This document shows, in pieces, positions 40,837-64,000 of a stretch of 64,000 nt of DNA. The notes under the pieces were generated by a model. It did no database searches. It was not told the DNA's origin and saw only the letters and a program-made list of their open reading frames with translations. This DNA comes from Verrucomicrobiota bacterium (lineage in GTDB: Bacteria > Verrucomicrobiota > Verrucomicrobiia > Opitutales > UBA953), in NCBI GenBank assembly GCA_003569205.1, contig BGOK01000014.1, positions 1 through 64,000 of the forward strand. The letters run 5' to 3'. Position numbers and translations under genes: made by a program. How positions within the stretch are numbered: the stretch's first letter is position 1; every line of letters starts with the position of its first letter.

Positions 40837-43800
40837 ATGGTACGCCCCACCCTAAGTCTCCTGTTCTTCGCTGCTGCCGCCCACGCGGTGCCCGAAGGCT
40901 TCACCATCCGTGAATTCGTCGGCACCACCCAGGAGCCCGAAATCTACCCGACGGCCGTCGCGGCCGCCGCTAACGGCGACGTTTATATTTCGTCCGACAA
41001 AAACGGTTCGCTCGGCCACATCAAGGGGATGGGCCGCATCCTCCTCGCCCGCGACACCAAGGGGGCTGGTCAGGCCGACGTGATGATCGAGTACGCCAAG
41101 GTGGAGTCGCCCCGTGGCGGTCACTGGGTGGGCGGCGTATTTTATCTGGTGAACCCTCCTTTCCTCACCGCCTTCCGGGACAAGGATGGCGACGGCAAAG
41201 CTGATGAACAGATTCTCTTAGTCGATGGCCTCGGCGGCGGGATTGAACACCCGCGTGGCGCTGACCACACCACCAACGGTTGCCGCATGGGCATCGATGG
41301 CTGGCTCTACATCTCGGTCGGCGACTTCGGCGCTGGTAACGAAAAGGAAAAGGCCGGCGCCAAGGGCCGCGACGGTAAGCGCGTGACGCTCTACGGCGGC
41401 GGCGTGATGCGCATTCGTCCCGATGGCTCTGAATTAGAAATCTACACCGAGATGACCCGTAATATCTGCGATACGGCTATCTCCCCGACGCTCGACCTCT
41501 TCTCCCGCGACAACACCAACGACGGTAAGGGCTGGAACACGCGCTTCCACCACTTCACGGCCCTCGCTAACGCTGGCTACCCTCGTCTGTACAAGAATTT
41601 CGATGACGAAACGGCCCGCCCGTTGGCGGACTACGGTGGCGGTTCTGGCACCGGTGGTCTCTACCTCAGCGAGCCCGGCTTCCCCAAGGGTTGGGGGGAG
41701 ACGCTCTTCACCTGCGATTGGACCACGGGCACGATTCACAATCACCCGATCAAGCAGTTCGAAGCGACGTTCATCACCCAGCAGCAGACTTTCCATAAGG
41801 TTAAGAACGCGACCGACATCGACGTCGACGGTAGCTCGCGCCTCTACATCGCCGACTGGCGCGCGGGTGGCTTCAGCTACCTCGGTAAGGGCAAGCAGCA
41901 GGGCATGATCCAGCAGGTCGTCGCCACGGGCGTGACCCCGAACAAGTATGTGGACGTGAACAAGGTCTCGGATGCCGAGCTCGTTAAGTTGCTCGCTTCC
42001 GACAGCGCTGTGCAGCGCCTCGAAGCCTCGCGTCGTCTCATCGATATCAAGAAGAGCGACCTAGCCCCCGCCGTCCTCGCTCTGGCGGGCGCCAGCAAGG
42101 CGCACCTCTATCACCGCGTCGCCGCGATTTTCACCTACAAGCAGATGCTGGGTAAGGATGCGACCCCGGGCCTCGTTGGCCTCACCAAGGATGACGCTGT
42201 CCGCGAGTTCGCCCTCCGCGCCCTCGCCGACCGTACCTCCGAAATCGCGGGCGTCCCCGTTCAGCCCTTCCTCGATGGCCTCAAGGATGCCAACCCACGC
42301 GTCCGTCTGCAGGCCCTCGTCGGTCTCCAGCGCCTCGGTGCCAAGGATGCCGCGGGTGCCATCGTCGACGCCGCCTCCACCTGGCCGGTCGACGAGTCCA
42401 AGGTCGAGGAAGGCGCGCACTACCGCCTCCCGCATACGGCCATCGCCGCCCTCGGTCACCTCGGCCATGCTAAGCCCATCATCGAAGCGGCCAAGGATCC
42501 GGCTAAGCGCTACATTGCGTTCCGCTCCTTGCAGCTGATTCACACCAACGACTCGGTGGACGGCCTCATCGCCCTCAGCACGACGGGTGATGCTGCCCTC
42601 CGGGCTGGCGCCATCGGTGCCCTCGCTCGCCTCTACCACGTTGAGAAGCCTTGGAACTATAAGGATTGGTGGAGCACCCGTCCGGATGACCGTGGCCCAT
42701 ACTTCATCCCAGCCGAATGGGAAGCCACCCCGCGCATCAAGGACGCCATCGAAGCCGCTTACGCCAAGCTCCCTGCCAACCTCCGCATGGCCGTTCTCGA
42801 AGTCCTCGCGAAGAACCGCATTGCCGTGACCTCGCTTAAGCTCGAGGGCTTGGACCCGATTCGCCTCGCCATGGCTACGCAGACGTTACGTCCGGCTGAC
42901 ATCGCTCTCCTCACCGATGCCGCGCTGTCCGCCAAGCGTCCCTGGAATGAGCGCTTTGATTGCTATAAGGCGCTCTCCAAGCTCGAAGGGAACGACGCCA
43001 TCGCCCCGCGCGTGCAGGTGCTCGCCGGTTGGTTGAAGGAAAAGGGCGCCCCCGCCGGCGTCGAGCAGGCCATCAACGACTTCGTCAACGACGGCCAGCG
43101 TGGCAACGAAGTGAAGCAGCTGCGTTCCCTCGCCAATAAGGCCGAAGACGCCAACTCCCGTATCCTCTGGCGCTCGCTCCTCACGGTGTTGAGCAGCCCG
43201 TTGACTAAGGAAGCCCAGAAGAAGGCCGTGCAAGCGGAGATTGATAAGAACCCGCGCGACATCGGCTTCTTCATGGCGATTTCTGACCTCGGCTTAAACG
43301 GTTTTGATAAGGCCATCGACGCTGCCATCGGCGGTGACAACACGATCCTCATCAACGCCGCCAAGGCCGCCCGCGAAGCTGGTAAGACTGCCGCCCAGCA
43401 TAAGGGCAAGCGCCTCGCTGAGCTCTCTCTCGCCGACGCGACCGCCGCGGGCCTGAAGGGGAAGGGTAACCTCAAGCTCGGCCAGAAGCTCTACACCCAA
43501 CAGGGTTGCGTGGCTTGTCACTCCATCGACCTCGCGGCTGAGCAGAAGGGTCCGTACCTCGGCTCCGCCGGCGCCAAGTTCTCCCGCGAGTATCTCGTGG
43601 AATCCGTGCTCCAGCCGCACAAGGTCGTCGCTCAAGGCTTCCAGACGATTATCTACCAGATGAAGGACGACTCGCAGCAGATGGGCTTCGTCACCGGTGA
43701 AGCCGATGGGATCATCACGCTCCGCAATATTGCCGGCCAGGTGACCAAGCTGAAGCGCGCCGATATCCGCAACGAACGTCGTGACACCAAGTCGATGATG

Positions 43801-43887
43801 CCGGAAAGCCTCGCCGCGGGTCTGACTGCCGAGGAGTTCAGTGCCATGATTGACTACCTCGCCTCCCTCAAGGCGATCGGCGGTTAA
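40837..43887 (+). CDS. Secreted beta-propeller, HEAT and haem-binding-domain protein
   Basis: 1016 residues with a short signal (MVRPTLSLLFFAAAAHA). The first 400 residues form a sorbosone-dehydrogenase-like beta-propeller (GRILLARDTKGAGQADVMIEYAKV, AFRDKDGDGKADEQILLVDGLGGGIEHP). HEAT repeats fill about 400-860. A C-terminal cytochrome c-like domain has C891-VA-C894-H895. This architecture is characteristic of Planctomycetes/Verrucomicrobia, the haem domain being the Pirellula/Verrucomicrobium type. It probably oxidises a sugar or related substrate in the periplasm, but the substrate is unknown. It stands alone, with a terminator directly after it. The leader is C-rich and has no Shine-Dalgarno sequence. 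Confidence 0.87.
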   Translation: MVRPTLSLLFFAAAAHAVPEGFTIREFVGTTQEPEIYPTAVAAAANGDVYISSDKNGSLGHIKGMGRILLARDTKGAGQADVMIEYAKVESPRGGHWVGGVFYLVNPPFLTAFRDKDGDGKADEQILLVDGLGGGIEHPRGADHTTNGCRMGIDGWLYISVGDFGAGNEKEKAGAKGRDGKRVTLYGGGVMRIRPDGSELEIYTEMTRNICDTAISPTLDLFSRDNTNDGKGWNTRFHHFTALANAGYPRLYKNFDDETARPLADYGGGSGTGGLYLSEPGFPKGWGETLFTCDWTTGTIHNHPIKQFEATFITQQQTFHKVKNATDIDVDGSSRLYIADWRAGGFSYLGKGKQQGMIQQVVATGVTPNKYVDVNKVSDAELVKLLASDSAVQRLEASRRLIDIKKSDLAPAVLALAGASKAHLYHRVAAIFTYKQMLGKDATPGLVGLTKDDAVREFALRALADRTSEIAGVPVQPFLDGLKDANPRVRLQALVGLQRLGAKDAAGAIVDAASTWPVDESKVEEGAHYRLPHTAIAALGHLGHAKPIIEAAKDPAKRYIAFRSLQLIHTNDSVDGLIALSTTGDAALRAGAIGALARLYHVEKPWNYKDWWSTRPDDRGPYFIPAEWEATPRIKDAIEAAYAKLPANLRMAVLEVLAKNRIAVTSLKLEGLDPIRLAMATQTLRPADIALLTDAALSAKRPWNERFDCYKALSKLEGNDAIAPRVQVLAGWLKEKGAPAGVEQAINDFVNDGQRGNEVKQLRSLANKAEDANSRILWRSLLTVLSSPLTKEAQKKAVQAEIDKNPRDIGFFMAISDLGLNGFDKAIDAAIGGDNTILINAAKAAREAGKTAAQHKGKRLAELSLADATAAGLKGKGNLKLGQKLYTQQGCVACHSIDLAAEQKGPYLGSAGAKFSREYLVESVLQPHKVVAQGFQTIIYQMKDDSQQMGFVTGEADGIITLRNIAGQVTKLKRADIRNERRDTKSMMPESLAAGLTAEEFSAMIDYLASLKAIGG

Positions 43888-51049: not shown

Positions 51050-52708
51050 TCATACCTTTCCACTTTCGCACGTTTCCACTTTTGCACGGTCCTCATCCGC
51101 GGCCCCGTCTGCCGCCTTCTTCCCATTCAACAACATCCCGACCCAAGTGCGGCGGATGAGGAAGTGATTAATGAGGAGGAGTGAGCCAAAGGTGAGTGAG
51201 CAAACGAGCCCGCATTTGACGATGGGCCAGAGCTTCCAATTAACCATCCAGAGTTGGAGGGCGATGACGAGTGGGAGGTGCGCAATATACATCCAGAGCG
51301 AGGCATCGGCGAGGGTGCGCACGGCGGCGATCGGCTTGGAGAAGTGCGCGGTAAAGAGGTCGAGCAAGGTAAAGGTCATGCCCCAAGCCACGCAGGCTTG
51401 TAGTCCACAGCTCACGAAGTGGATGGCGGGGTTGCTCGACCACGCTGAAAAGAATGCGAGCGGGAGGACGATGAACGTGAGGGCGGGGAGTTGAATCCAC
51501 GCTAACCAAGGAATCCGCGCTGGCTCGCAACCGCGGATTCGCATGGCTGCCCCGAAGGCGAAGAAGAAGCCGAAGAAGACCAACGTGGCGGGTTTCTCGA
51601 GGACGGACATCTCACCGTCGATCCCGAAGCCGATATCTTTGCGCGCCCACCAGAAGAGTAACGTCGTGACGGGCAGCAGCCAGAGTAGTCGCGTCCATTC
51701 GGCCAACATCCAGCGCGGCATCGCTGGCAAGTTCCAGCGCTCATTGACCCAGGCCCACAAGCCGAAGGCGAGCGTGAGAATCATCAGCACCCACATGAAC
51801 CACAGGTGGCTGAGCCAAGGACGATGCAGGGCGGCCGTGAGTTGGCTCCAGCGCTGCTGTCCTGCCTTGCCCGGCTCCAGTAACCCGAGGACGGCGCGGC
51901 GCCCTTGTTTCATCTGCTCCTCGGTGTGCTTCAATCCCAGCTGTCCGTAGATTTGCCACGACTCGTTTTCATCCCGAGTCGTCAGTTGAGCGGCCGTCTT
52001 CCCGTCGTCGTTCTTGGCCTGCAGTACCTCGTCAGCCCACGGGCGACCACGCGCGGATTCTACGATTACCTGGGCGGCTTCGGTTTGGCCAAAGCGAGCC
52101 GCGGCATGGAGCGCGTGTTCGCCATGCAGCCGCGCCAGCATCGTTTCTGCGGGGCGGCCATTGTTGCGCTTGAGTAAGGCTTTAAGCGCCTCGGTCTGCC
52201 CGAGTGCGGCCGCCAAGTATTGCGCATTACCGAGATCGGAATCGTCGGGGGCGATTTTCTGCAGCGCGGTCAGATCGCCTTGCCGGACGGCTGCGTAGAC
52301 TCCGTCGGTCAATTGGGCGGCCCCCCGCGAGCGGAGCGCTTTCTGTTCAAGGCCCACACTCGAGACCCAGTGCGTGAGCGGCAGGAAGGCGACCGCGGCC
52401 AAGGCAAAGGGAATGAGGAGTCGACGTAGCCGTCGCTTCACCATGCCGGTGGCCCCGTCGCGGCGCAGCACCATTGCGGTGAAGTAACCCGCAAGCACAA
52501 AAAAGAGTTCCATGCGCCAGCCGTGGATGAAGGCCCACGCGGCGGTCAGCAGGACGCTTTCACCGCGGTCTTGGACGACCCAGTATGGCCCCATATACGC
52601 CATGCACGCGTGCAGGACGATGCCCAAGAGCATCGCGAAACCGCGGAGGGCGTCGAAGTCGTGCCGACGTTCGTCGGGCAGGCTGGGCGGGAGCGTCGCC
52701 ACCCGCAC
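51050..52708 (-). CDS. Acyltransferase-3 family protein with ankyrin-like insertion
   Basis: 552 residues; the GTG start at 52706-52708 follows the stop of the HEAT gene directly (TAAGTG). The acyltransferase-3 fold is shown by FDALRGFAMLLGIVLHACMAYMG with the conserved R and H, AFIHGWRMELFFVLAGYFTAMVLRR, then about ten membrane helices. Between helices near residue 115 and 300 lies a soluble insertion of about 140 residues with ankyrin-like helical pairs (VYAAVRQGDLTALQKIAPDD, NAQYLAAALGQTEALKALLKR, EHALHAAARFGQTEAAQVIVE). Such enzymes move acyl groups onto envelope sugars; the insert is unusual. The 3' end lies in a repeat-rich region. Confidence 0.85.
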   Translation of the reverse strand: MRVATLPPSLPDERRHDFDALRGFAMLLGIVLHACMAYMGPYWVVQDRGESVLLTAAWAFIHGWRMELFFVLAGYFTAMVLRRDGATGMVKRRLRRLLIPFALAAVAFLPLTHWVSSVGLEQKALRSRGAAQLTDGVYAAVRQGDLTALQKIAPDDSDLGNAQYLAAALGQTEALKALLKRNNGRPAETMLARLHGEHALHAAARFGQTEAAQVIVESARGRPWADEVLQAKNDDGKTAAQLTTRDENESWQIYGQLGLKHTEEQMKQGRRAVLGLLEPGKAGQQRWSQLTAALHRPWLSHLWFMWVLMILTLAFGLWAWVNERWNLPAMPRWMLAEWTRLLWLLPVTTLLFWWARKDIGFGIDGEMSVLEKPATLVFFGFFFAFGAAMRIRGCEPARIPWLAWIQLPALTFIVLPLAFFSAWSSNPAIHFVSCGLQACVAWGMTFTLLDLFTAHFSKPIAAVRTLADASLWMYIAHLPLVIALQLWMVNWKLWPIVKCGLVCSLTFGSLLLINHFLIRRTWVGMLLNGKKAADGAADEDRAKVETCESGKV

Positions 52709-56475: not shown

Positions 56476-57969
56476 CTACTCCCGCGCGATGACGGTGCGG
56501 ACTTTGGTTTGGCGTTCGAGGGCGCGGAATTCGGAGAGGCGGATGGCGTCCGTGCGGTCGATGAGGACGAAGACTTCCTTGCCCCGGAGGAAACGGCGCG
56601 GGCTGTAGGGAGTCTTGGTGCGTTCGGCTCCCTTGGTCGTTGGTTCCGGCCCGAGCTTAAAGTCTTCCTTGGCGTCGGCGGGGAGTTTGGGCGGGATGAC
56701 CTGCCACTCGTAGATTAACTCGAGCGCATTGTAGCTGGGGTCGTCCTTCGCTTCGCGGTGCGGCGCACTGTCCGTCAGGTCGGCCGCGGAGTTAGCAATC
56801 CACGGGGTGCCGAGGATGATGAACTTCTTCGGCGTCGGTGCCGGGAGCCATGGGGCGGTCTCGGGGGCGGTGATCGGCAAGTAGGCCGTGCGGATTTCGC
56901 CGAGCTTAGCTTGAGCGCTCAGCGTGAGGTCAGCGTTTTCCCAGCGTTGGGTAAAGCGGGCGATAAGTTCCGCGCCAGCCGGTCCCGTCAGCACTGCCGC
57001 ACAGGCAAGTCCGTTCACGGGCTCACGTCCATACTTACGCCCCCCGACGATCCACGCACGGTCATCGGCGAGGAGGTACGCCGCCCCGGGCGAGACGCGA
57101 ACTTTCACGCCCGCGGTGAGGAGCTTGCGCAAGGTGTCCACTTGCGGGGAGCGGGCAGGGAGGAGCACACGGACATCACACGCGGGGTCCTTCGCTTTGT
57201 CGGTGAGTTGGGTGAGGAGCGCCGCGTCGGCGTCCAGCGATTCCAGGGCGACCCAAAGTTTTTCCTGCGCACCGGTTACGAACGCGGTGCGAGCATCGGC
57301 CACTTCCAGTCGAGCCACCGGCTTAGCGGGTGGCTTCACGATGGGGCGGACGTCGATGGGGACACCGGCAATCACGCGCTGCGCGGGGAAGGCGACCGGC
57401 TGCTCGGCTTTACCGGCCCCTGCGCGCGAGAGTCGGTTGAGCCCATGTCGCCACCAGCCTAGTGCAAAGAGCCGTTGGAGGTTCGGAGCCAGCATGGGTT
57501 CATCCACGCAGAGGCCCTCGCCCGATTCCAAGAACGCCCGCGGCTGCGCCGAGGCGGCATCGATGAGTAGGAGCGCGGGATGGAAAGTCGTTGTGCTTTG
57601 CAACGTTGCGCCGGAGGTCGCCAGGAAATCGAGCGCCGCCAAGTGGACCTTCTTTTCATCGGGCTTCAGTTCGGGCCCTTGGCCTTCGGTCGTAATAATA
57701 TAAACGCGGACCTGACGTTGCTTGGCCGCTTGCGCGAGGGCGGCGACGAGCGCGGCATGCGTCAGGGTTGGCAGCGACAGGTGCACCGTGGTCTGGGCGC
57801 TACCGATGGCCGTGATCCACGCATTCAGCCAAGCCGCGCGTTGCGTGTAGACGTGCGGACCTTCTGGCGTGGCCGTCGGCTCGCCGGCGCGCTTTAGCCA
57901 GATATCTCCGACCACGCGTTCGTGGTAGCGGAAGGGCTCCGAAGTGCGAGTGAGCGGAGGAATGCTCAT
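56476..57969 (-). CDS. Phospholipase-D-like protein lacking catalytic HxK motifs
   Basis: 497 residues of no firmly known family. Two stretches resemble the PLD strand-helix units: ITAIGSAQTTVHLSLPTLTH, where an HxK should follow but HPALLLID (FHPALLLID) is found, and a second unit with DTLRKLLTAGVKVRVSPGAAYLLADDRAWIVGG, where the expected histidine is also gone. Between them lies VRVYIITTEGQGPEL, typical of the PLD core. The C-terminus (ALERQTKVRTVIARE) is plain. It probably has no nuclease activity by this route. Its start overlaps the upstream gene by four bases, so it is the third gene of a coupled set. Confidence 0.6.
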   Translation of the reverse strand: MSIPPLTRTSEPFRYHERVVGDIWLKRAGEPTATPEGPHVYTQRAAWLNAWITAIGSAQTTVHLSLPTLTHAALVAALAQAAKQRQVRVYIITTEGQGPELKPDEKKVHLAALDFLATSGATLQSTTTFHPALLLIDAASAQPRAFLESGEGLCVDEPMLAPNLQRLFALGWWRHGLNRLSRAGAGKAEQPVAFPAQRVIAGVPIDVRPIVKPPAKPVARLEVADARTAFVTGAQEKLWVALESLDADAALLTQLTDKAKDPACDVRVLLPARSPQVDTLRKLLTAGVKVRVSPGAAYLLADDRAWIVGGRKYGREPVNGLACAAVLTGPAGAELIARFTQRWENADLTLSAQAKLGEIRTAYLPITAPETAPWLPAPTPKKFIILGTPWIANSAADLTDSAPHREAKDDPSYNALELIYEWQVIPPKLPADAKEDFKLGPEPTTKGAERTKTPYSPRRFLRGKEVFVLIDRTDAIRLSEFRALERQTKVRTVIARE

Positions 57970-59132
57970 GGCGCATCCTCCCAGAGGAGGAGGTCGTAGG
58001 CTTCGAGCAGCGCCGCGCGGCTGCCGTCAGTCGGCCCAGTAGACGGTTGTTGGGCGAGGGCGGCCGCGAGTTCGTGTAAGGACCGGGGACGATAGGCGGG
58101 AATTTTCTGTCGCGCCGCTTCGCCGGCTTTGGCCGCCGCGGCGGGCGTGCGTTCGCTCCCGAGGGCGCGGACCTGAAGCCATAAGCCCCAGGCGTCGACA
58201 TCTTCCGCGCGCGGGACGAGGGCGACTTCAATCGGTTCCACTTCGAAGACCCCGAGGTCAAATTGGCCGGGCACGCGGAGGAGCGCGGTGAAACTTTGCT
58301 GGTGGCGAAGTCGGAAACTCAGGCGGGCCTCGGTCGACAGCGCCGCAAAGGGCACGGAGAGACCCGCCGATAATTCGCGCGGGGCCGCGCCCGCCGAGAG
58401 CACGAGGGCTAGCAAATCGCCGTAGGTTTGGTCCGCGCGGCGTTGCAGCGAGGAAACGAGGCGCACGTCCACCGCGGTCGCCGCCTTCTCGCCCTTGCCT
58501 TCCTTGCGTTCGGAAAACACCCGGAGACGGAAAGGCCCCGTGTGGTCTGGGGCCAGTTCGAGTTCGATGATCAACTCTTGTGGCGTCGGGAGCACGCGCA
58601 CGACATCGGCGGTGCGGACCACCACGAAAGGCGTGTTGGGTTGCAGTAAGGAACGGCCGCAGGCGCCGGGCTCCGTGGCGAGCAGTTCCTCCAGCGGAAT
58701 CGTTTCGCCGGCGCTGGCCTCCCGGCGTTCTTCGAGGTGCAGCACGTGGTGGCCAGCGAGGAGCGGTTCGTCGGCGACGGCGAAGCGGAATAACCCTTGC
58801 TGGGCTTCAGTGGATACCCCGAGTTGGGCCGCGGCCGCGCCCAAGGTACTGAGCGCATAAGTCGGGAGCTCCGGTGAGCCGGTTGCGGTCAGCATCCCGC
58901 AGTGCACCGCCTGCTCGAGCCACGTCCGCGCGGCGGCGACCGAGAGCGGGAGCAGGTGCTGTGAAATATCTTCGGGCGTCAGGGGGCGGGACTGCTGTGC
59001 GCGTTCGCTTGCGAGCCGCAGCATCGGCAACCACTCGGTTTGCGCCGATGGCACCTGGACGGCGGCCATCGTCTCCAGCCACCGGACGGTGAACGCTCGG
59101 CGGAGGCGTAAGGTCGGCAGGCGGGCACTCAT
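57966..59132 (-). CDS. Protein of unknown function with possible winged-helix region
   Basis: 388 residues without a recognised family. The N-terminal part has a helical region, LTPEDISQHLLPLSVAAARTWLEQAVHCGMLTATGSPELPTYALSTLGA, which looks like a winged-helix unit (three helices then a wing). The middle and C-terminal parts are beta-rich (PFRLRVFSERKEGKG, VRLVSSLQRRADQTYGDLLALV) and then Ala/Pro-rich. No catalytic motif is seen. Both ends overlap their neighbours by four bases, so it is the middle member of the three-gene set. Confidence 0.6.
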   Translation of the reverse strand: MSARLPTLRLRRAFTVRWLETMAAVQVPSAQTEWLPMLRLASERAQQSRPLTPEDISQHLLPLSVAAARTWLEQAVHCGMLTATGSPELPTYALSTLGAAAAQLGVSTEAQQGLFRFAVADEPLLAGHHVLHLEERREASAGETIPLEELLATEPGACGRSLLQPNTPFVVVRTADVVRVLPTPQELIIELELAPDHTGPFRLRVFSERKEGKGEKAATAVDVRLVSSLQRRADQTYGDLLALVLSAGAAPRELSAGLSVPFAALSTEARLSFRLRHQQSFTALLRVPGQFDLGVFEVEPIEVALVPRAEDVDAWGLWLQVRALGSERTPAAAAKAGEAARQKIPAYRPRSLHELAAALAQQPSTGPTDGSRAALLEAYDLLLWEDAP

Positions 59133-60784
59133 CGCAGTACCTCCAGCCGGGAGTTGAGGCTACTGCCCCGTGGCAGGCCGGAATGGTAGACGAGTTCGGA
59201 GCGACCAGTGCCCGTATCAGCGCGCACGCCGTGGTGCAGCACTTCGGTGACGGAGGGTAACGTCCGCTCGAGGAGCGTGAGCAGTGCGCGCGGTTCCCAG
59301 AGCGGTTTCTCGAAGGGAAAGATACAGCGGAGGTCTAACAGTAAAGCGCGGGCATACTCGCCGCGGGCGGCGTCCGCGTGGCGTTGGGCGTGCAGGCCGC
59401 GGAGGTTATCGGCCGTGCGGAGGGACCAGCTGAGTAGGATGACCGGACGAGGCTTCGCGACGCGGCCGCGCGTCTTGGGAGCCTTCATGCGCACCGCCAG
59501 CGCGGTGAAGACGGCGCTGGGTGCATCGGTCACGACGAGGCGGAAGTCGGTCGACAGGCGGGCGAGGAGATCTGTCTGTTCCACGCAAGCGCGCGTAGTC
59601 ACGATGACGTTGATCTCCGTTGCGGGCGCGCTCCAGCTTTCCGCCGCCGCTTCAGTGAGTGGGCAGACCGCGACGGTGAGTTGGCGGGAACGCAGGTATT
59701 GCACCGCACGCGTGAGTGCGGGAGCGTCTTCACCAGAAGTCTCGAGGACGAGCAGTACCTTGCGTCGCCCATAGGCGTCGGCGAGTTCGGCGTCTTCATC
59801 TTCCGCGGAACCGTCTTTGCCCACGCAAGCTTTGTAGGCCAGTTCGGCTTGGAGTTCAGTGAAGTGTCCCGCCCGCTCCGCTTCGGCGGCGGCGAGGGTG
59901 GCTAGTTCGGTGCGGCCTGGAGTGGTCGGTTGTTCGGCGTTATTTCCGATCAACGTCCATTTCGTGGCGTGGACGGCGAGCGGTAGGAAGTCGGCGAACG
60001 TCAGCTGGGCGGCGTCGACCACGACGAGTTGATCGAAACCCTCGGCCTCGCGGGCGAGCAGGGCGGGCCGCAGTGCGGGGAGGCGGGTGAGTCCGTCGAA
60101 CGTCCCGAACGTCAGGTTCGCTGAAGTGAACGCCACGCGCTCGGCCTCATCGCGTTTGAGCAGCACGGGGCCGACCCTCAGTAAAGTTGCGATGCGTGCT
60201 TCGAGGGTGAACGTGCGGAATTTCTCACTACCGACTTCGCCGAGCGCGAGCAGGCGCAGTGGTGCGACGAGGCGGGCCCCCTCTGGATGGGCGAGTACTG
60301 TGTTCAGCACGGCTTCCAGTTCGTGGCCAGTCGCGGCCGTCAACAGAACGCGTTGCCCCCGGCGGAGCCCTTGGAGAATTAATTCAGCCGTCGCGCGGGT
60401 GCGGGCGGGGCCGGCGGCAGCGTCGAGGAGAGCGAAGTCAGGCGAGCCGATCGCCTTACGGACGAATTCACGGGCGGCGGTTTCGGTCGGTGCGAGGACC
60501 TGCCAGGCCTCGGCCTCATGGCCGACTTGGAGGGCTTGGGCGTCGCCCCAGCTCTTGGGTTCGGGGTTAAACAGGTTAAGCAGGGGCAGGTGACCGGATT
60601 CCCACCGCTGCAGCAGTCGGCGGAGGGCGGTGGCTCGCCGGAGGGCTGGCTGACGGGCGGGCCGGGCCGCGAGGAAGACCGTATCGCCATTGGCTATCTT
60701 CGTGAGCAGGGTGGCACCGTCGGGCCCCGGGGTGGGGCGAATTACCAATATTAACGGGTCACGGAGGCCTTCGATCCGTTCCAC
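59129..60784 (-). CDS. Degenerate UPF1-like superfamily-1 helicase relative
   Basis: 551 residues from a GTG at 60782-60784, but the same frame continues upstream through PEVIVLRFEAAEEAEEARRH without a stop, so the gene is longer. The match to AAA_11/AAA_12-type helicases is visible in order: a P-loop position with AAAGPARTRATAEL (about 122-134) in place of GPPGTGKT, followed by LRRGQRVLLTAATGHELEAVL, like the usual ...RVLVTAPSNAAVDNVL; a Walker-B-like DQLVVVDAAQ (251-260) in place of DEAxQ; and TLIGNNAEQ in place of GDxxQLPP. The P-loop lysine and the Walker-B Glu are missing, so ATPase activity is unlikely. It opens a coupled three-gene set. Confidence 0.62.
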   Translation of the reverse strand: MERIEGLRDPLILVIRPTPGPDGATLLTKIANGDTVFLAARPARQPALRRATALRRLLQRWESGHLPLLNLFNPEPKSWGDAQALQVGHEAEAWQVLAPTETAAREFVRKAIGSPDFALLDAAAGPARTRATAELILQGLRRGQRVLLTAATGHELEAVLNTVLAHPEGARLVAPLRLLALGEVGSEKFRTFTLEARIATLLRVGPVLLKRDEAERVAFTSANLTFGTFDGLTRLPALRPALLAREAEGFDQLVVVDAAQLTFADFLPLAVHATKWTLIGNNAEQPTTPGRTELATLAAAEAERAGHFTELQAELAYKACVGKDGSAEDEDAELADAYGRRKVLLVLETSGEDAPALTRAVQYLRSRQLTVAVCPLTEAAAESWSAPATEINVIVTTRACVEQTDLLARLSTDFRLVVTDAPSAVFTALAVRMKAPKTRGRVAKPRPVILLSWSLRTADNLRGLHAQRHADAARGEYARALLLDLRCIFPFEKPLWEPRALLTLLERTLPSVTEVLHHGVRADTGTGRSELVYHSGLPRGSSLNSRLEVLR

Positions 60785-60912
60785 CCGCAGGCCGGGGGCC
60801 GCTTGGAAGCCTTCGGCGGCGGTGGCATGGAGCGTAAAAGTGTTGGTTTCGCCCCAAGCCAGCCGCAGGGCATGGCGGCGGGCCTCCTCGGCCTCCTCGG
60901 CGGCCTCGAACC

Positions 60913-61347
60913 TTAAAACGATGACCTCAGGGTGTTCGCCCTGGGGGAGGGGGGGAGGGCTCCCGTGGCTTCGGCGTGGGCCCAGGCCGCTTCGGTCTGC
61001 CTAATGGTCGCCGCCGAGCAGGGGGTGACGAGCCAGGCCCGGGTCAGCCGCTCCGCCTCGCCCTCCGCTGCTTGGAGGAGGCTAGCCAACTCTACCCCCG
61101 CACTCTCGGTATAGACGGGGGCGGTCCGCCGGCGCGGGTCATCCAGCTTCCTTAAATCCAGCCCGGCATGCTTTAAACGGGCCGTTTCGGCCAATTGGGC
61201 GGCTAAACGGACCCGGCAGGGGTCCAAAGGGGCTGGGGTTGGACTGGGGGTGGGGGAGGCCAAGGCGGGGGGCGGAAAACCGGAGGGGAAGGGCGAGCAA
61301 AGCGATAACCCTAGCCGGAGGGAAGCGGGAAAGCGCCCAGATGGCAC
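60913..61347 (-). CDS. Likely N-terminal part of the degenerate helicase, out of frame
   Basis: 144 residues from a GTG at 61345-61347; a later start is also possible. The Ala/Glu/Arg-rich helical sequence (RVRLAAQLAETARLKHAGLDL, ELASLLQAAEGEAERLTRAW) looks coding. It ends in GALPPSPRANTLRSSF, just where the helicase frame reads PQGEHPEVIVLRF. One more C in the minus-strand C7 run (60949-60955) would join them. Together they would form a protein of about 740 residues. Confidence 0.5.
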   Translation of the reverse strand: MPSGRFPASLRLGLSLCSPFPSGFPPPALASPTPSPTPAPLDPCRVRLAAQLAETARLKHAGLDLRKLDDPRRRTAPVYTESAGVELASLLQAAEGEAERLTRAWLVTPCSAATIRQTEAAWAHAEATGALPPSPRANTLRSSF

Positions 61348-61778: not shown

Positions 61779-64000
61779 ATGAAACGCAGTCGTTCCCCGA
61801 AGTTAATTTCCCGCGCGTGCCTCTTCGCCGCCGCCGCCCTCCTCACCGTCGGTGCGCCGCCGAGTGCGCGCGCCGCCAACATCTTCTTCGACCAGAACGG
61901 CACGGCCGCCGGCACCGGCGCGACAGGGGCGGCCTCGTTCAACGGCGCCTTCTGGGTCAACGCCGTCGCGGCCACGACGATCCCTGGCACCGCGGCCGCC
62001 GCGGCTTACACTTTCACCAGTGCTGACGTCGCTTACTTCATCGGCGGAACGGTGCAGACGATCACGTTAGCTTCGGCTACGACGCTCAACGGCATCAACG
62101 ATCAGACGGGGATGACCTTTACGGGCAGTACCTTCACGCTCGCGGGCACGGCGCCGTCGATCAACGTCTTGACGGCCAAGACCACCACCATCAGCTCCAT
62201 CCTTGCAGGCACAGCTGGTCTGACGAAAGCGGGTGCAGGCACGTTGGTGCTCTCTGGCACGAACACCTATACGGGCGGCACGTTCCTGACCGCAGGCAAG
62301 TTGTCTGCCGGCGTGGATGCTAACCTTGGTGCGACCGCTGGTGGCCTGACCTTTAACACCGGCACTTTGCTTTCCTCTGGCACCTTCTCCACTGCGCGCG
62401 CCGTCACCATGACGGGCGCAGGCACGATCGAAGTCGCCGCTTCGCAGAACCTCACGATGACGGGCGTTATCGCGGGTGCGGGTGCGCTCACGAAGACGGG
62501 CGCAGGCATCTTAACGCTTAATGGTGCCAACACCTATACGGGTGCTACGGCCGTCAGTGCTGGCACGCTCGTCCGTGCGAATACCTACGCTGCAGCTGCT
62601 CAATCCGTAGCTTCAGGCGCGGTCCTCGAATTCGCGGTCGCCACTGGAAACCGCGATTCCGCGGCGACCACTTTCACTGGTGCGGGCACTCTGCGCAAGA
62701 CGGGCGCCGGCGGCCTCCTCTGGGGTACAGGTGCCGCGACTTTCTCGCTCGGGTCAGGCGCGCTCATCGACGTTCAGGCCGGCACTTTCACTGGCGGTTC
62801 CAACGCCAACGAGGTCTGGACCGCTAACCTCTCCGACCTGAATGTCGCGACGGGCGCGATCTTCACCACGGTCGAAGCGAACGCTCGCGTGAATAAGATT
62901 ACCGGCGCCGGAACTATCAAGACCGGCTACACTGGGTCCGGCTACCTAAACCTAACCATCGGCGTCGATAACGGCAGCAGCACCTTTGCCGGTGTCATCG
63001 CCAACGATGTAGCCGCGGGCAATCTCGTGAAGATTGGCACTGGCACGATCACCCTAACCGGCACGAACACCTACACCGGCAGCACCACCATCAACGCTGG
63101 TAAACTGTCGATCGGCGCGGATCTTAACCTCGGTGCGGCCCCGACGGCGGCCACGGCTGGTAAGCTCACTTTCGATACTGGAGGCTTGTTGAACACGACG
63201 GCCACGATGACGCTTAACACCTTCCGTGGCACCGCTCTGACGGGTAACGGCGGCTTCGACGTCAACTCCGGCACGACCCTCAGCTACGCCGGCATCATCG
63301 CGGGTGCGGGCGTCTTGCAGAAGACCGGTGCGGGTGCCCTCATTATCACGGGCACCAACACCTTCACGGGTGGCGTCAACCTGATTGGCGGTTCGCTCCA
63401 GATCGATAACGCGAACCGTTTCGGCACGAACGGCGCGATGAATTTCAATAACGGCGCGAAGCTCATCACCACCGCCAACATCACCTTAGCGGGTGCCAAT
63501 ACCTTTACCGGTAACGGCGAAATTTCGCCGAACTCGGGCACGATTTTGATTGTTAGTGGTGCCTATTCTGGCGTCGGTTCTCTCACGATGAGCGGTGCCG
63601 GCACGCTCGTGCTTTCCGGTACCAGCTCCTACACGGGCGGCACCAACATCACCGCGGGCGCCATCCAAGTCGCCGCCGATGCCAACCTGGGCGGCGCCGC
63701 GGGCACACTCTCATTCAATAATGATGGCCGGCTCCGTTCGACGGGCACGTTCACCACCGCTCGCGCCGTCACGATGACCGGTGCTGGCACTTTCAACATC
63801 GATGCCGACCAAACCGTCACCATCTCGGGTGTCGTCAGCGGCGCTGGCCTAATCACCAAGATGGGCTCGGGCACGCTCCTGCTCACCGGCACCAATACTT
63901 TCACCAGCAAGTTGAACGTGACGGGTGGGACCCTCGGTGCGAGCTCGTCCGCTGCTTTGGGCGCTGTTCCGGCAGCCTTCACCGCCGATTGGGCGACCTT
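61779..64000 (+). CDS. Autotransporter-associated beta-strand repeat protein, 5' part
   Basis: The reading frame begins at ATG 61779 and continues without a stop to the window edge (over 740 residues), so the gene is incomplete. It starts with a long basic signal peptide (MKRSRSPKLISRACLFAAAALLTVGAP, then ARAAN). The rest is Gly/Thr/Ala-rich with repeated units of the beta-strand-repeat type: GAGTLVLSGTNTYTGG, TKTGAGILTLNGANTYTG, GTGTITLTGTNTYTGS, GAGALIITGTNTFTGG and GAGTLVLSGTSSYTGG. Proteins of this type form a parallel beta-helix and may be surface-exposed or released; a C-terminal anchoring domain would lie beyond the window. Confidence 0.87.
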   Translation, partial: MKRSRSPKLISRACLFAAAALLTVGAPPSARAANIFFDQNGTAAGTGATGAASFNGAFWVNAVAATTIPGTAAAAAYTFTSADVAYFIGGTVQTITLASATTLNGINDQTGMTFTGSTFTLAGTAPSINVLTAKTTTISSILAGTAGLTKAGAGTLVLSGTNTYTGGTFLTAGKLSAGVDANLGATAGGLTFNTGTLLSSGTFSTARAVTMTGAGTIEVAASQNLTMTGVIAGAGALTKTGAGILTLNGANTYTGATAVSAGTLVRANTYAAAAQSVASGAVLEFAVATGNRDSAATTFTGAGTLRKTGAGGLLWGTGAATFSLGSGALIDVQAGTFTGGSNANEVWTANLSDLNVATGAIFTTVEANARVNKITGAGTIKTGYTGSGYLNLTIGVDNGSSTFAGVIANDVAAGNLVKIGTGTITLTGTNTYTGSTTINAGKLSIGADLNLGAAPTAATAGKLTFDTGGLLNTTATMTLNTFRGTALTGNGGFDVNSGTTLSYAGIIAGAGVLQKTGAGALIITGTNTFTGGVNLIGGSLQIDNANRFGTNGAMNFNNGAKLITTANITLAGANTFTGNGEISPNSGTILIVSGAYSGVGSLTMSGAGTLVLSGTSSYTGGTNITAGAIQVAADANLGGAAGTLSFNNDGRLRSTGTFTTARAVTMTGAGTFNIDADQTVTISGVVSGAGLITKMGSGTLLLTGTNTFTSKLNVTGGTLGASSSAALGAVPAAFTADWAT

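Follow-up and report, generated by a model that had tools for sequence, protein, structure and literature searches.

According to passages of Bell et al. (2024, PMC11090510), the CnuH family of UPF1-like helicases is typically encoded in operons with winged helix-turn-helix (wHTH) domains fused to effectors, which in Type III-C carry two phospholipase D (PLD) domains; the same passages give RNA as the target predicted by the authors. Here we analysed three genes, A, B and C, on the minus strand of a 64,000-nucleotide stretch from a Verrucomicrobiota bacterium (contig BGOK01000014.1, positions 1 to 64,000; hereafter the window), whose products are a degenerate UPF1-like helicase, a putative winged-helix protein and a degenerate tandem PLD-like protein. 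We propose, with a probability of about 0.6 for the statement as a whole, that this trio is an inactivated, truncated and vertically kept derivative of a UPF1-like helicase/winged-helix/tandem-PLD nuclease operon, and that its role is now non-catalytic binding. The features of the locus are the following.

59129-60784, minus strand: gene A, a degenerate helicase of UPF1/IGHMBP2-like type that has the RecA1 region and the C-terminal part but no RecA2; the frame is open up to 61000
60934-61257, minus strand: N-terminal part of gene A, helical, about 100 amino acids (aa), located by the profile of A in another frame than the remainder of A
60398-60421, minus strand: degenerate Walker A of gene A, AAAGPART where GPPGSGKT is expected
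60008-60025, minus strand: degenerate Walker B of gene A, VVVDAA where IIDEAS is expected
57966-59132, minus strand: gene B, a protein of 388 aa whose N-terminal region holds a winged helix and which is homologous to the second gene of the intact operons
58821-59033, minus strand: winged-helix region of B, residues 34-104, from the predicted model and Foldseek
56476-57969, minus strand: gene C, a PLD-like protein of 497 aa with two PLD domains in tandem, their motifs degenerate
57559-57582, minus strand: first PLD motif of C, HPALLLID, which retains H and D but not K
57064-57084, minus strand: second PLD motif of C, AAYLLAD, H and K lost

Like the Type II/III CnuH-CnuE operons of CoCoNuT systems, as far as the passages cited describe them, the trio has on one strand a UPF1-like superfamily 1 (SF1) helicase gene followed by a wHTH and a PLD effector, a comparison that does not extend to the 'elongated wHTH'. 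It differs in that B and C are separate proteins, in that catalysis is lost, and in that neither the trio nor its flanking genes encode a McrB/CnuB GTPase or CnuC, so that the locus is not a CoCoNuT. Mokosh (MkoA/MkoB/MkoC) also pairs a UPF1-like helicase with a PLD protein, and the MkoA model matches the intact helicase of Vibrio rumoiensis, a plasmid relative of A introduced below, at E=3.6e-81. The trio lacks the kinase part, however, and is neither the MkoA plus MkoB of type I nor the MkoC of type II: window A matched 0 PADLOC families and window C matched MkoC at E=0.026, while the matches of A from locus L016 to MkoA (2e-4) and of C from locus L039 to MkoB (1.2e-7) are fragments and unspecific. 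The helicase-plus-PLD parallel to DISARM, drawn in the original prediction, stood for the PLD part, an intact PLD protein having DrmC as its best PADLOC family (E=8.9e-29), and failed for the helicase and for B, which match neither DrmA (an SF2/YprA helicase) nor DrmB (DUF1998). Its further statement that no described system has this makeup is not supported in view of the CnuH-family operons, as those passages present them, the intact plasmid relatives of the same gene order and a distant intact set in the genus.

Inactivated SF1 helicase domains kept for DNA binding, in RecC together with a nuclease domain, are reported for RecC and AddB of RecBCD/AddAB in sections of two articles (PMC1185551, PMC4824097). 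In those accounts RecC retains its two motor domains and acts alongside active subunits, whereas A has no RecA2 and no active partner in its set. Because both motor domains are kept there, the comparison is one of principle only, and a RecC-like strand scanning by A is less likely for the same reason.

Loss of catalytic motifs

A Pfam scan of window A gave no match. Gene A matches TIGR00376 (IGHMBP2 family) at E=1.4e-6 and its profile matches SMUBP-2 in the PDB at E=2.7e-6; together with the intact homologues, these matches bear out statistically the likeness to DNA2/UPF1-type helicases that had been read from the letters alone. The AAAGPARTR at the P-loop and the VVVDAAQ at Walker B are both present as claimed, the aspartate of the latter aligning to the glutamate column of Walker B and not to the aspartate column. 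Among orthologues, the Walker A lysine is lost in all seven copies that hold the motif (AAAGPAR, APPGPAR, APAGPAR, ASAGSAR) and the Walker B DE pair in 8/8. A feature that the original prediction had missed is the loss of RecA2 with its motifs IV-VI: in a joint alignment the degenerate proteins stop where motif IV begins, with 1-2 residues beyond that point in 5/5 degenerate rows versus 208-236 in the 4 intact rows. As the stop of A overlaps the start of B in one of the two clades of copies (clade 1: window, G009, G017, G025, G072), this absence is not a sequencing truncation. A thus shares the RecA1-core sequence of UPF1/IGHMBP2-like SF1 helicases and has neither their Walker A/B residues nor motifs IV-VI, which makes it a descendant of helicases that, by its motifs, is no longer one. 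The NCBIfam model PLuB_AAA also matched A (E=0.001) and was set aside as unspecific, since it matches 160/194 phylum genomes and 11/14 controls; a literature search on its name returned nothing relevant. The only other TIGR00376 match in the genome of the window is a 776-aa RecD2-like helicase with intact GGPGTGKT and IDES (L102; G000:C5, about 91536-91724).

Gene C belongs to the PLD superfamily by profile (Pfam PLDc_2, E=1.2e-10), as its predicted likeness to the PLD core implied. It had also been said to lack the HxK histidines, which is correct for the second motif, where H and K are gone (lost in 7/7 copies), and incorrect for the first, where H130 is kept and the lysine is lost. H130 and D137 of this first HxKxxxxD are invariant in 8/8 copies, and the K is missing from seven of the eight (HPA/HPT/HPV in clade 1, HAQ in G058 and G014); G059 keeps a complete HAKFLVVD. 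Apart from that motif the complete HxKxxxxD motifs of active PLD enzymes are absent, and cutting is therefore unlikely in 7/8 species. Matches to C in seven more genomes (class sample, n=384) cover the second PLD domain only.

For B, the possible winged helix seems to hold for the N-terminal region: the predicted model places a winged helix at residues 31-100 (block predicted local distance difference test, pLDDT, 68-86), for which Foldseek returned ArsR/MarR-type folds at probability 1.00 and a best E of only 0.015. Two further genomes (order sample, n=372) gave matches to B at E=6.7e-4 and 0.0023 in open reading frames (ORFs) that look glycoside-type and SNF2-type, and these were discarded as chance.

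Two clades about 45% identical in A share the losses in the helicase and that of the second PLD motif; these losses therefore predate the split of the clades. The first PLD motif went later and on more than one occasion.

The homologues of A consist of one reading frame of about 700-745 aa, whereas window A lies in two, with the N-terminal ~100 residues at 60934-61257 and the remainder at 59132-60994. The profile of A matches the former at E=1.7e-37 (positions 16-124) and, in a second search, at E=5.2e-35. In the DNA alignment window A is one base shorter in a C-rich stretch, an apparent one-base frameshift that may be either a real recent mutation or a consensus error of the metagenome-assembled genome (MAG). 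The frame of A is intact in G009, G017, G072, G058, G059 and G014. Position 61347, at which the original prediction ended the locus, is a GTG in a frame other than that of the helicase ORF.

Intact relatives

A plasmid search with the helicase of G067, a genome of the same genus, yielded three intact operons, in V. rumoiensis (NZ_AP018688.1), V. aerogenes (NZ_AP024863.1) and Pontibrevibacter nitratireducens (NZ_CP049815.1). They encode, in this order of species, intact helicases of 909, 908 and 843 aa, a hypothetical second protein of 369, 369 and 365 aa and PLD proteins of 510, 510 and 506 aa. Their fourth gene codes for a sigma-54-interacting regulator; in V. rumoiensis, the only copy scanned, it is RtcR_PspF1 (CARF-AAA-HTH; PADLOC E=5.8e-207). 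The three genes of the window are homologous to those of the plasmids one by one, in equal order, with B and C of similar length and a 4-bp overlap between helicase and B. What sets the plasmid operons apart is a helicase with all motifs and RecA2, both HxKxxxxD motifs and the regulator gene, none of which occurs in the window set. Profile-profile comparison with the plasmid homologues gave 1e-28 for A, 1.2e-9 for B and 7.7e-16 for C, against 0.68, 0.6 and 0.5 for mismatched controls, and on the strength of this match the second plasmid gene is a homologue of B.

G067 itself carries an intact set (L126; G067:C208, 11-7213, on an 8.8-kb contig) of an 847-aa helicase with GPAGSGKT, LDEAS, GDPYQLAP, QHRMDH, DSCQGHEAD and NVALTRAR, a 390-aa protein, a 371-aa PLD protein with HAKLILVD and an EVE-AAA_5 (McrB-like) protein; the contig ends before any McrC. 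In the cited passages of PMC11090510 the CoCoNuT GTPase motif is NxD, whereas this EVE-McrB has, by eye, NTAD, that is NxxD. The degenerate profiles match the G067 set at 1.7e-15 (A), 5.8e-4 (C) and 0.034 (B), which marks it as a distant relative. The profile of A scored 131-133 bits on the Vibrio helicases and 109 on that of Pontibrevibacter versus 80 on G067; that of C scored 68 and 49 on plasmid proteins versus 12; that of B scored 19.5 and 15.7 versus 10.7, with only 6.7 for V. rumoiensis; reversed decoys stayed at E of 3 or more. Since the degenerate profiles fit the plasmid operons better than G067, the parent is of the plasmid-operon kind and not the intact copy of the genus. These sequence comparisons make descent of A, B and C from an intact helicase/winged-helix/tandem-PLD operon very probable.

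No further intact copies were found in IMG/VR or, by DNA, among E. coli genomes, chromosomes outside the phylum not having been searched, and B of G067 had no match in plasmids and phages. Outside the genus, the profile of A matched one genome of the class sample (n=335), G330, in an MkoA-type protein (E=6.1e-5). Together with the PADLOC results this had suggested Mokosh as the parent, which we rejected: the profile of C matches the MkoB of G330 only at E=6.8, the MkoB model is unspecific (22/315 class genomes, mostly ordinary PLD proteins of ~500 aa), and the trio resembles the plasmid operons far more closely. In G330, another Verrucomicrobiae genome, matches to DrmA, an AbiEii-like gene, MkoB-like, MkoA and DrmMI lie side by side (L044; G330:C23, 262-14863).

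Distribution and selection

The degenerate set occurs in 8/55 genomes of the genus, as does B; A was found in nine of the 55, these eight and G067, whose helicase is intact. C was detected in 5/57 genomes of the sample of relatives, and the copies of G058, G059 and G072 were added from their loci; C of G014 ends at the contig end. These counts are samples in which many genomes are incomplete MAGs. Searches for the degenerate set on mobile or viral DNA left window C unmatched in plasmids and window A (623 aa) unmatched in phages, and the profiles of B and C had no match in IMG/VR.

The four-base overlaps announced at both junctions of the three same-strand genes are real, both being ATGA on the minus strand, and GGAGG-like sequences precede B and C inside the gene before each. 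Both junctions are ATGA in 5/5 genomes of clade 1; in G058 and G059 the B/C junction is ATGA and a few bases separate A from B. The setting recurs in both clades. An ion-channel gene and queA face C in the window, G009, G025 and G072, and the channel gene lies about 7.6 kb (G058) and 9.3 kb (G059) beyond C, while A comes after an MR_MLE-MFS-DHDPS gene run in G058 and G072, with one more gene between in G058. Such a shared setting fits vertical descent, not recent transfer.

Slow pseudogenisation would also account for a dead set: activity was lost once, the genes linger, and the frameshift of the window is the next step. The frameshifted A, the presence of the set in so few genomes of the genus and the way the first PLD motif has been lost step by step from species to species agree with this. 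Yet the ratio of nonsynonymous to synonymous substitutions, dN/dS, is 0.09-0.28 in 12/12 non-window pairs (Nei-Gojobori; four pairs per gene), and for the N-terminal fragment, which precedes the frameshift, comparison with three relatives over 87 codons still gives a pN/pS, the corresponding ratio of proportions, of 0.28-0.35. The reading frames of B and C are uninterrupted in each of the seven aligned copies, and the Walker losses are older than the split of the clades. We regard slow pseudogenisation as unlikely. With catalytic losses common to orthologues and purifying selection, the set is not one decayed copy, and the original suggestion that its members keep the scaffold and lose catalysis extends beyond the window. 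Conservation between the clades has shifted away from the catalytic motifs: 32/50 columns are invariant in A 448-497 and 28/50 in C 391-440, and the 25-column bins that hold the two PLD motifs of C contain only 5 and 3.

Gene neighbourhood

The trio is flanked by the ion channel and by a long, repeat-rich autotransporter-like ORF (61779-63998) that is divergent from A and runs off the window. ORFs of this type also occur in G009, upstream of A, and in G017, on the contig that bears A. Ten ORFs of the window (34.6-52.7 kb) named by Pfam include no known defence gene; PADLOC was not run on the whole window. In this part of the window lie two adjacent CotH-kinase-domain genes (PF08757; 34606-38112, minus strand), a gene for a 1016-aa protein (40837-43887) that combines DUF7133 and HEAT repeats with a cytochrome c domain at the C-terminus, and one for an acyltransferase-3 protein (51050-52708) whose ankyrin repeats (Ank_2, residues 139-218) lie between two Acyl_transf_3 stretches or beside the first.

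Possible role of the trio

Without Walker residues and RecA2, ATP-driven movement of A is very unlikely. The most economical reading would be a role in binding or assembly. A, B and C would most likely still assemble into a complex, as their ancestors probably did. Rather than unwind and cut, such a complex would bind nucleic acid or a protein partner and serve as a sensor, a decoy or a regulator. The trio has retained its overlapping expression, has gained new conserved surfaces and, so far as profile matches show, keeps its folds. Taken alone, we put this non-catalytic role at even odds. The parent system may have served in defence, to judge from the literature and from the McrB neighbour.

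Several observations weigh against our proposal. Synonymous sites are saturated in the deepest pairs (window-L038/L039), where pN/pS climbs to 0.56-0.67. The 47/55 genomes of the genus without the set, many of them incomplete, also fit a declining function, as does the frameshift of window A. The model of A has a mean pLDDT of 49.8 and is not confident for the whole protein, its Foldseek matches being mixed SF1/SF2 helicases at template modelling (TM) scores below 0.3, which add little, and the whole model of B averages 47.8. A single HMMER profile of B reaches the four intact B proteins weakly (E=2e-5, 2.9e-4, 0.0096 and 0.16). Finally, C of G059 may still be active through its complete first motif.

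Alternatively, the trio could be a dead decoy that poisons or titrates incoming plasmid-borne helicase-PLD systems and so spares the host their toxicity. An inactive subunit is a natural dominant negative within its complex, and intact homologues do exist on plasmids as well as beside EVE-McrB in the same genus. Against this, the intact copy of the genus is distant (C versus G067, only E=0.0036). A decoy against active plasmid copies would be a live rival, if a rather improbable one. Hidden enzymatic activity, for instance a phosphodiesterase in C acting through the first motif or the conserved C-terminal segment, could draw on HAKFLVVD in G059, on the invariant H130 and D137 and on the strong conservation of C 391-440, but is very doubtful with the HxK lysine lost in 7/8 copies, the second motif in 7/7 and A deprived of Walker residues and RecA2.

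Under the reading we prefer, an inactivated and vertically kept operon with a binding role, the locus may have a wider meaning. Single dead subunits are known; RecC and AddB are examples, as are nuclease domains inactivated in some defence proteins. Our literature searches returned no report of a comparable whole-operon pseudoenzyme system. We suggest, tentatively and with somewhat less than even confidence, that a whole defence-type helicase-nuclease operon was domesticated in one freshwater Verrucomicrobia lineage and now forms a complex with no catalysis at all, its motor, adaptor and nuclease inactivated, its second motor domain deleted, and its overlapping gene order and new surfaces maintained by selection. 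What would set the trio apart is the combination: every recognisable enzyme is dead and a motor domain is missing, yet all three proteins remain under selection and intact cousins can be named. The trio lets one ask what a helicase-wHTH-PLD assembly does without cutting and unwinding, for which G059 supplies a copy with one complete PLD motif, and how a mobile defence-type system becomes a resident chromosomal one.

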